Positions 20,117 through 26,457 of a DNA stretch of 37,096 nt are shown piece by piece (the stretch's first letter is position 1; every line of letters starts with the position of its first letter). A program made the position numbers and the translations under genes. Below the pieces are notes generated by a model that was not told the DNA's origin, searched no databases, and was given only the letters and a program-made list of their open reading frames with translations. The stretch comes from Nitrospirales bacterium (GTDB lineage Bacteria; Nitrospirota; Nitrospiria; Nitrospirales; UBA8639): assembly GCA_012270585.1 (NCBI GenBank), contig JAAXIB010000018.1:1-37096 (forward strand). The letters are read 5' to 3'.

Positions 20117-20158
20117 GTCACCCTCTCCCCCCGTGGGAGAGGCTTGGGGTGAGGGGGA
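20117..20158. repeat. CACCCTCTCCC/GGGAGAGG hairpin repeat
   Basis: A second copy of the CCCTCTCCC...GGGAGAGGC-TTGGGGTGAGGG repeat, 17 bp downstream of pcm. It can form a strong stem-loop between pcm and the GlcG-like gene. Confidence 0.75.
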
Positions 20159-20202
20159 AGAGGGAGGTGCCCCATGCGGTCCAAACAAAAAGAGAAGGAA
20201 GC

Positions 20203-24113: not shown

Positions 24114-24983
24114 ATGACCAATTCCTTTTTTAAAGGCCACGGGTTGGGCAATGATTATATTGCCCTTGATCCCCGACTGTTGACGTTTAAACTCACCGCC
24201 AAAACGATTCGAGCGATTTGTGATCGAAATTGGGGGGTGGGAAGTGATGGGATCCTGGCGCTGGTGCCCTCAAAAAAAGCCGACTTCGGGTTGCGGATTT
24301 TCAACCCGGATGGGAGTGAAGCGGAAAAATCCGGAAACGGCTTGCGCATTTTCGGCTGTTTTCTCTATGCCACGAAAAAGACAAAGCGCCGGTCTTTCTC
24401 GGTTGAAACCAAGGGCGGGCTGGTTCACGTGGAATTGACACTGGACCGGAACGGGCAGGTGAACGGCGCGACCGTGGAGATGGGGCGGGCCTCGTTCAGG
24501 CCGAGGGATTTGCCCTGTACCATTAAGGCCCCGGAGTTGGTCATGCAACCGATCAAAGCCGTCGGGCAGTCCCTGCGCTTCACGGGGGTGAGTGTCGGCA
24601 ACCCGCATTGTGTGGTGTTCAGGGACCGGGGCGGACCGTGGACTCGTGAGGATTTACTGCGCATGGGACCCGAATTGGAAACCCATTCCACCTTTCCCAA
24701 GTGCACGAACGTTCAACTGGCTTTTCCCACGGGCCCTCACGCCGTGTCCATTCTGATCTGGGAGCGGGGAGCCGGAGAGACGCAGGCATCCGGTTCCTCC
24801 GCCTGCGCCGCGGCCAGTGCAGGGGTGCGCTTGGGGTTGGTGAAAAGCCCGGTCAAGGTGCTGGCTCCCGGCGGCAGACTGGACATCACGGTGGATGACC
24901 GGTACAGCCTGACCCTGAAAGGTCCCGTCACCGAAGTGTATCAAGGACAGTTCAGCGGAGCATTTTTGCCCGGCGTCCGGTAA
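24114..24983 (+). CDS. dapF: DapF-like epimerase with both catalytic cysteines replaced by serine
   Basis: A 289-residue protein with the two-lobed diaminopimelate epimerase fold. Blocks seen are FFKGHGLGNDYI, GVGSDGIL, FNPDGSEAEKSGNGLR, VSVGNPHCVVF and ERGAGETQASGSSACA. Canonical DapF isomerises LL- to meso-diaminopimelate using two cysteines (Cys73 and Cys217 in the Haemophilus enzyme) as acid and base. Here both are serines: Ser73 (codon TCC) and Ser226 (codon TCC). All other signature residues are kept, which points to a distinct subfamily, either with another amino-acid substrate or with altered chemistry, rather than decay. A simple DapF annotation should be treated with care. It stands alone with no lysine-biosynthesis neighbours. 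An upstream ribosome-binding site is not obvious. Confidence 0.88.
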   Translation: MTNSFFKGHGLGNDYIALDPRLLTFKLTAKTIRAICDRNWGVGSDGILALVPSKKADFGLRIFNPDGSEAEKSGNGLRIFGCFLYATKKTKRRSFSVETKGGLVHVELTLDRNGQVNGATVEMGRASFRPRDLPCTIKAPELVMQPIKAVGQSLRFTGVSVGNPHCVVFRDRGGPWTREDLLRMGPELETHSTFPKCTNVQLAFPTGPHAVSILIWERGAGETQASGSSACAAASAGVRLGLVKSPVKVLAPGGRLDITVDDRYSLTLKGPVTEVYQGQFSGAFLPGVR

Positions 24984-26318: not shown

Positions 26319-26457
26319 TTTCCGGGACGGCACGGGGGCCGTCCCCTACAAAGACGATCATTCGGGTTCCCTCCGTTCTGTAGGGACAATCCCCTGTGGT
26401 TGTCCGTCGGGGAGGGCACGCGGATTATTCGGGACGGCACGGGGGCCGTCCCCTACA
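26319..26457. repeat. Two direct copies of a GGGACGGC...GCCGTCCC palindrome
   Basis: A 28-bp element containing GGGACGGCACGGGGGCCGTCCC and ending CCCTACA occurs at 26322-26349 and 26430-26457, with a diverged third form (GTAGGGACAATCCCCTGTGGTTGTCC) between. The second copy ends right at the stop codon of the gamma-glutamylcyclotransferase-like gene and could act as its terminator. No gene is seen in 26142-26457. Confidence 0.8.

Follow-up and report, generated by a model that had tools for sequence, protein, structure and literature searches.

A conserved DapF homologue with serine at both catalytic cysteine positions, the candidate diaminopimelate epimerase of a Nitrospirales lineage

The dapF locus and its product

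The window, the whole stretch of 37,096 nucleotides analyzed here, is one contig of a 2.5-Mb Nitrospirales genome with a completeness score of 100%. Its forward strand carries dapF at positions 24114–24983, an open reading frame with an ATG start that encodes a 289-residue homologue of diaminopimelate (DAP) epimerase, as identified from the open reading frame list, the profiles TIGR00652 and PF01678, and an AlphaFold2 model. On the same strand, the N-terminal signature SEAEKSGNGLR (residues 68–78) lies at 24315–24347 and the C-terminal signature GETQASGSSACA (residues 221–232) at 24774–24809; both blocks read as given in the original prediction. Within them, TCC codons at 24330–24332 (+) and 24789–24791 (+) encode Ser73 and Ser226, which align with the two catalytic cysteines (EQCGNG and QACGTG) of DapF enzymes of solved structure, in agreement with the earlier claim that both cysteines had become serine.

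In profile searches, the protein scored as a full-length DapF, with 220.4 bits against TIGR00652 (cut-off 114.65). PF01678, the sole Pfam family in the protein, was matched in both of its halves with 159.8 bits (cut-off 34.7). The profile for the bifunctional DapF/glutamate racemase (NF038284) gave 54.3 bits against a cut-off of 350, and the sequence does not place the protein in the proline racemase superfamily, whose members appear as fold matches at only 12–16% identity. Because the catalytic pair that marks the family, Cys73/Cys217, is replaced by Ser73/Ser226 in all Nitrospirales members read, we classify the protein as a DapF variant and not as a standard member.

The gene stands alone, flanked on one side by a hypothetical protein that matches no Pfam family and on the other by a di-haem cytochrome c peroxidase, and synteny of this neighborhood is kept across the genus. 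The nearest named relatives of the protein come from Nitrospira or Nitrospirales metagenome-assembled genomes, at 83–94% identity. Short interspersed repeats are also present in the window at 20121–20159 and 26323–26457, with many copies over contigs of related genomes; one repeat unit, of 28 nucleotides, is present twice, 107 bases apart.

Predicted structure and active site

The AlphaFold2 model shows a two-domain DapF-like fold with a pLDDT of 91.6, obtained from an input alignment that included distant rows; an alignment of close relatives only gave a pLDDT of 43. Its best match in the PDB is 9mro, a closed, ligand-bound DapF (Z score 36.3, RMSD 2.0 Å over 270 residues). Helices are predicted at residues 74–86 and 227–239, so that both serines, like the cysteines of known DapFs, lie at helix N-termini.

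The DAP contacts N13, N64, G74–N75, N163, N199, E217, R218, G227, and S228 do not vary among the Ser/Ser proteins of Nitrospirales, and the same contacts have been described for the Anabaena and Haemophilus influenzae enzymes (PMC12039745). In particular, Asn11, Asn64, Asn157, Asn190, Glu208, and Arg209 of the H. influenzae numbering are all present, as N13, N64, N163, N199, E217, and R218. The earlier statement that everything other than the two cysteines is strictly retained thus applies to the DAP-contacting residues, but not to other positions near the active site, which have shifted throughout the clade: C79 to I, G229 to S, M/F/Q72 to K, and L/M224 to Q. Position 79 is Ile in the Nitrospirales Ser/Ser proteins and Cys in all 50 Cys/Cys proteins. 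Position 72 is Lys in all aligned Nitrospirales Ser/Ser rows (66 of 66) and Met, Phe, Gln, or Thr in the Cys/Cys proteins; in distant Ser/Ser proteins it is Gln, Arg, or Met. Since Lys72 is lost in these distant members, the chemistry cannot be put down to one compensating residue, and among K72, I79, Q224, and S229 the only clade-specific change that the distant proteins have in common is the loss of Cys79. Protection from oxidation is a possible reason for the replacement of the catalytic cysteines, although not as part of a general avoidance of thiols, because the other cysteines, at positions 36, 135, 166, and 231, are kept.

Conservation of the Ser/Ser pair in Nitrospirales

All 67 sequences read, taken from 66 genomes of Nitrospirales, have serine at positions 73 and 226. 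Of the 197 genomes of the class, about 130 contain a full-length copy with at least 65% identity. The serines of the Nitrospirales proteins are encoded by TCN codons at both sites. TCC and TCT lie a single base change from a cysteine codon, yet cysteine was never seen at either position; close homologues with cysteine at both, which would have pointed to a local event, were sought and none was found. Sequencing error, local mutation, and chance are therefore ruled out by the presence of both serines in 67 sequences from 66 genomes. Within the genus, pairwise dN/dS is 0.06–0.13, indicating purifying selection, and this value of about 0.1 together with the open frame rules out a pseudogene, as had been argued from the start.

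The source genome contains one PF01678 protein, the Ser/Ser DapF, and a second, Cys/Cys homologue, which the original prediction had proposed to look for, is absent from it. Among the Ser/Ser genomes of the phylum sample, a single one (G236, Nitrospiraceae) has PF01678 matches that indicate a second full copy; it carries two tandem dapF copies, both Ser/Ser (G236:C22:829000-833000). Three genomes of the genus appeared to lack dapF or to contain just its end. In two of them, G012 and G007, a contig ends within the locus, and true absence was ruled out in favor of an assembly gap; in the third, G013, the locus spans a contig break.

Phylogeny and other DapF lineages

The tree answers the question of whether the Ser/Ser proteins form a clade: they constitute a single group with a bootstrap value of 100 and an SH-aLRT value of 99, while Ser/Cys and Cys/Ser proteins fall into separate clades among the Cys/Cys proteins. 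Some long branches meet in this part of the tree, and the deep joins are less certain than the Nitrospirales Ser/Ser group. In families f2 and f4 of the order, as in the remainder of the phylum sample, the genomes read have Cys/Cys DapFs.

Several genera of family f3 carry an unrelated DapF, observed in eight Nitrospiraceae genomes (loci L053, L112–L114, L116, L117, L119, and L120). Like the protein studied here, it has a natural serine at position 73; unlike it, it belongs to a separate lineage at about 32% identity, uses an AGC codon for this serine, and keeps both Cys226 and Cys79. Within the same order, the first cysteine has here been lost a second time, separately. No genome read carries both the Ser/Ser and the Ser/Cys lineage, a distribution that would be expected if the two proteins performed the same essential job.

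Beyond the phylum, the analysis covered plasmid and viral-contig records, and the Ser/Ser pair was seen in both. Homologues are encoded on a Streptomyces plasmid (NZ_CP108679.1, L162, 9995–10939) and on an Agrobacterium vitis plasmid (NZ_AP023281.1, L163, 5956–6852), in the order iron-containing redox enzyme, 2OG-Fe dioxygenase, DapF, molybdopterin oxidoreductase, and aldo/keto reductase. This shared gene set resembles a biosynthetic cluster. The pocket of the plasmid proteins is changed (N163 to V/T, E222 to S/L), unlike that of the Nitrospirales proteins. An IMG/VR contig (L165, 980–1825) encodes a DapF-like protein of the Ser/Ser clade that is 39% identical to the query and retains N163, and three others (L166, L167, and L168) encode the reverse pair, Cys73 and Ser226. 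A scan of viral contigs with a degenerate DNA pattern returned chance matches only.

The DAP pathway of the source genome

The LL-DAP aminotransferase DapL, whose presence the original prediction had suggested checking, is found in the source genome with 614 bits, above the strict cut-off, and scores above the cut-off in 104 of 118 Nitrospirales genomes. LysA (527 bits) lies far above its cut-off, and MurE (521 bits) is likewise above cut-off and contains the DNPR motif. The DAP dehydrogenase domain PF16654 has no match in the source genome, and a DAP-dehydrogenase-like gene is absent both from it and from each of the 14 genus members that were searched. Such a gene, of a type II-like kind, is patchy in other Nitrospirales; its product matches solved DAP dehydrogenases at 3e-57 and scores 129 bits, below the NCBIfam cut-off of 180.6. 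One copy lies on L181 at 1105–2013, and stops or frameshifts break the copies of G448, G306, and probably G174. A dehydrogenase bypass is accordingly ruled out for the genus members searched.

With DapL, LysA, and MurE present and no detectable DAP dehydrogenase, the pathway yields LL-DAP and an epimerase is still needed, for which the Ser/Ser DapF is the sole recognizable candidate in the genome. The original prediction had reasoned that, were this the only homologue, meso-DAP synthesis would have to run another way. It is indeed the only homologue, but no other route was found, and the data do not support that conclusion.

Proposed function and mechanism

The Ser/Ser protein is probably the working housekeeping DAP epimerase of the source bacterium. 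The proposal of a subfamily with a different chemistry or substrate stands in part: the proteins form one Ser/Ser clade and serine chemistry is a live possibility, but another substrate is unlikely, because all known DAP-contacting side chains are conserved. In the proposed pathway, DapL would make LL-DAP, the Ser/Ser DapF would invert one of its α-carbons, and the resulting meso-DAP would feed MurE for peptidoglycan and LysA for lysine.

The enzyme would combine the DapF fold and its two-domain cleft with the residues that bind DAP, and its putative acid/base catalysts would be Ser73 and Ser226, positioned at the N-terminal ends of central helices. Proton transfer would then be a two-base process like the thiol/thiolate mechanism, but with hydroxyl/alkoxide groups. 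That the serines themselves act as the bases is a further step, which we infer, and on balance we lean towards a natural cofactor-independent epimerase with a Ser–Ser acid/base pair serving as the sole housekeeping DAP epimerase of the Ser/Ser Nitrospirales lineage. A free hydroxyl has a pKa of about 16, which counts against serine as a base; helix dipoles, backbone amides, and possibly the clade-specific Lys72, Ser229, and Ile79 may lower it.

A natural Ser/Ser epimerase would be surprising, because the DapF-fold enzymes tested lose almost all activity when cysteine is changed to serine. The C101S and C233S variants of PddB have less than 0.1% of wild-type activity (PMC8225329), a paper that also cites similar results for M. 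tuberculosis DapF, and the activity of HisR is greatly reduced by C67S and C209S (PMC11602996). The same kind of change also serves as a crystallization trick (PMC12039745). In the wider fold, catalytic serine has precedents in a Ser/Cys 4-hydroxyproline epimerase and a Ser/Thr 3-hydroxyproline dehydratase (PMC4113996).

These mutants lend weight to an alternative that we nevertheless regard as unlikely, in which the Ser/Ser protein does not epimerize DAP efficiently and has another role, while MurE adds, and LysA decarboxylates, LL-DAP. The pathway certainly reaches LL-DAP, judging by DapL homology. LL-DAP peptidoglycan, moreover, is found in some actinobacteria. Such a cell wall is hard to reconcile with a DAP pocket kept strictly, including the contacts to the distal L-center, with purifying selection on the gene, or with a LysA so far above its cut-off, given that known LysA enzymes act on the D-center of meso-DAP. 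Nitrospiraceae genomes without the Ser/Ser gene also have another DapF in its place.

It is similarly improbable that meso-DAP arises from a non-homologous epimerase or dehydrogenase and that the Ser/Ser DapF is a paralogue-like protein acting on another amino acid. The biosynthetic-looking plasmid clusters indicate that the clade includes other roles, and a DAP-dehydrogenase-like gene is scattered among other Nitrospirales; however, no DAP dehydrogenase exists in the source genome or genus, the pocket substitutions of the plasmid relatives are not found in the Nitrospirales proteins, and the gene is single-copy, stand-alone, and conserved clade-wide. Least probable is an epimerase of the same function in which Lys72 or a neighbor-activated water moves the proton, since Lys72, although adjacent to Ser73 and invariant in Nitrospirales, is replaced in more distant Ser/Ser proteins, and the two serines are, besides the loss of Cys79, the sole near-active-site changes common to all members.

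Implications and comparison with known systems

Our search, which covered an open-access library, returned no report of a natural Ser/Ser DapF. The protein is a real, conserved variant of a known enzyme, with a chemistry that we infer. In DapF-like racemases, the thiol/thiolate pair is regarded as indispensable, and Cys-to-Ser mutants are used to disable these enzymes. If the favored epimerase reading is true, a lineage living on Ser/Ser would show that far weaker bases are sufficient, and active-site pKa tuning would become directly testable. The enzyme would further resist thiol oxidation and thiol- or cysteine-directed DapF inhibitors, and would escape a disulfide switch of the type described in Corynebacterium glutamicum DapF (PMC5296763). 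Automatic DapF annotation would then hide a mechanistic split. Were the protein inactive, Nitrospira would need either LL-DAP in its cell wall or an epimerase not yet known, and this too would be novel.

Canonical DapF (EC 5.1.1.7; Pseudomonas aeruginosa 8qzy, H. influenzae 1gqz, Anabaena 9mro) has the same fold, length, and two symmetric domains as the query, and shares with it the DAP-contacting residues, the TIGR00652 equivalog score, and the pathway position after DapL. The query differs in having serine for both catalytic cysteines and Ile for the third conserved cysteine, Cys79; its Gly46 replaces Gln44 of H. influenzae, as does the glycine of the Anabaena and Arabidopsis enzymes. The engineered H. 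influenzae variants C73S and C217S (2q9h and 2q9j) likewise carry serine at one catalytic position and retain an unaltered fold, but these are laboratory single mutants, whereas the query lineage has natural serine at both positions throughout. A natural serine acid/base catalyst in a DapF-like fold is also found in 4-hydroxyproline epimerase (Ser93/Cys236) and trans-3-hydroxyproline dehydratase (Ser90/Thr256), which differ from the query in their low identity (12–16%), their other substrates, and their second catalytic residue, Cys or Thr.
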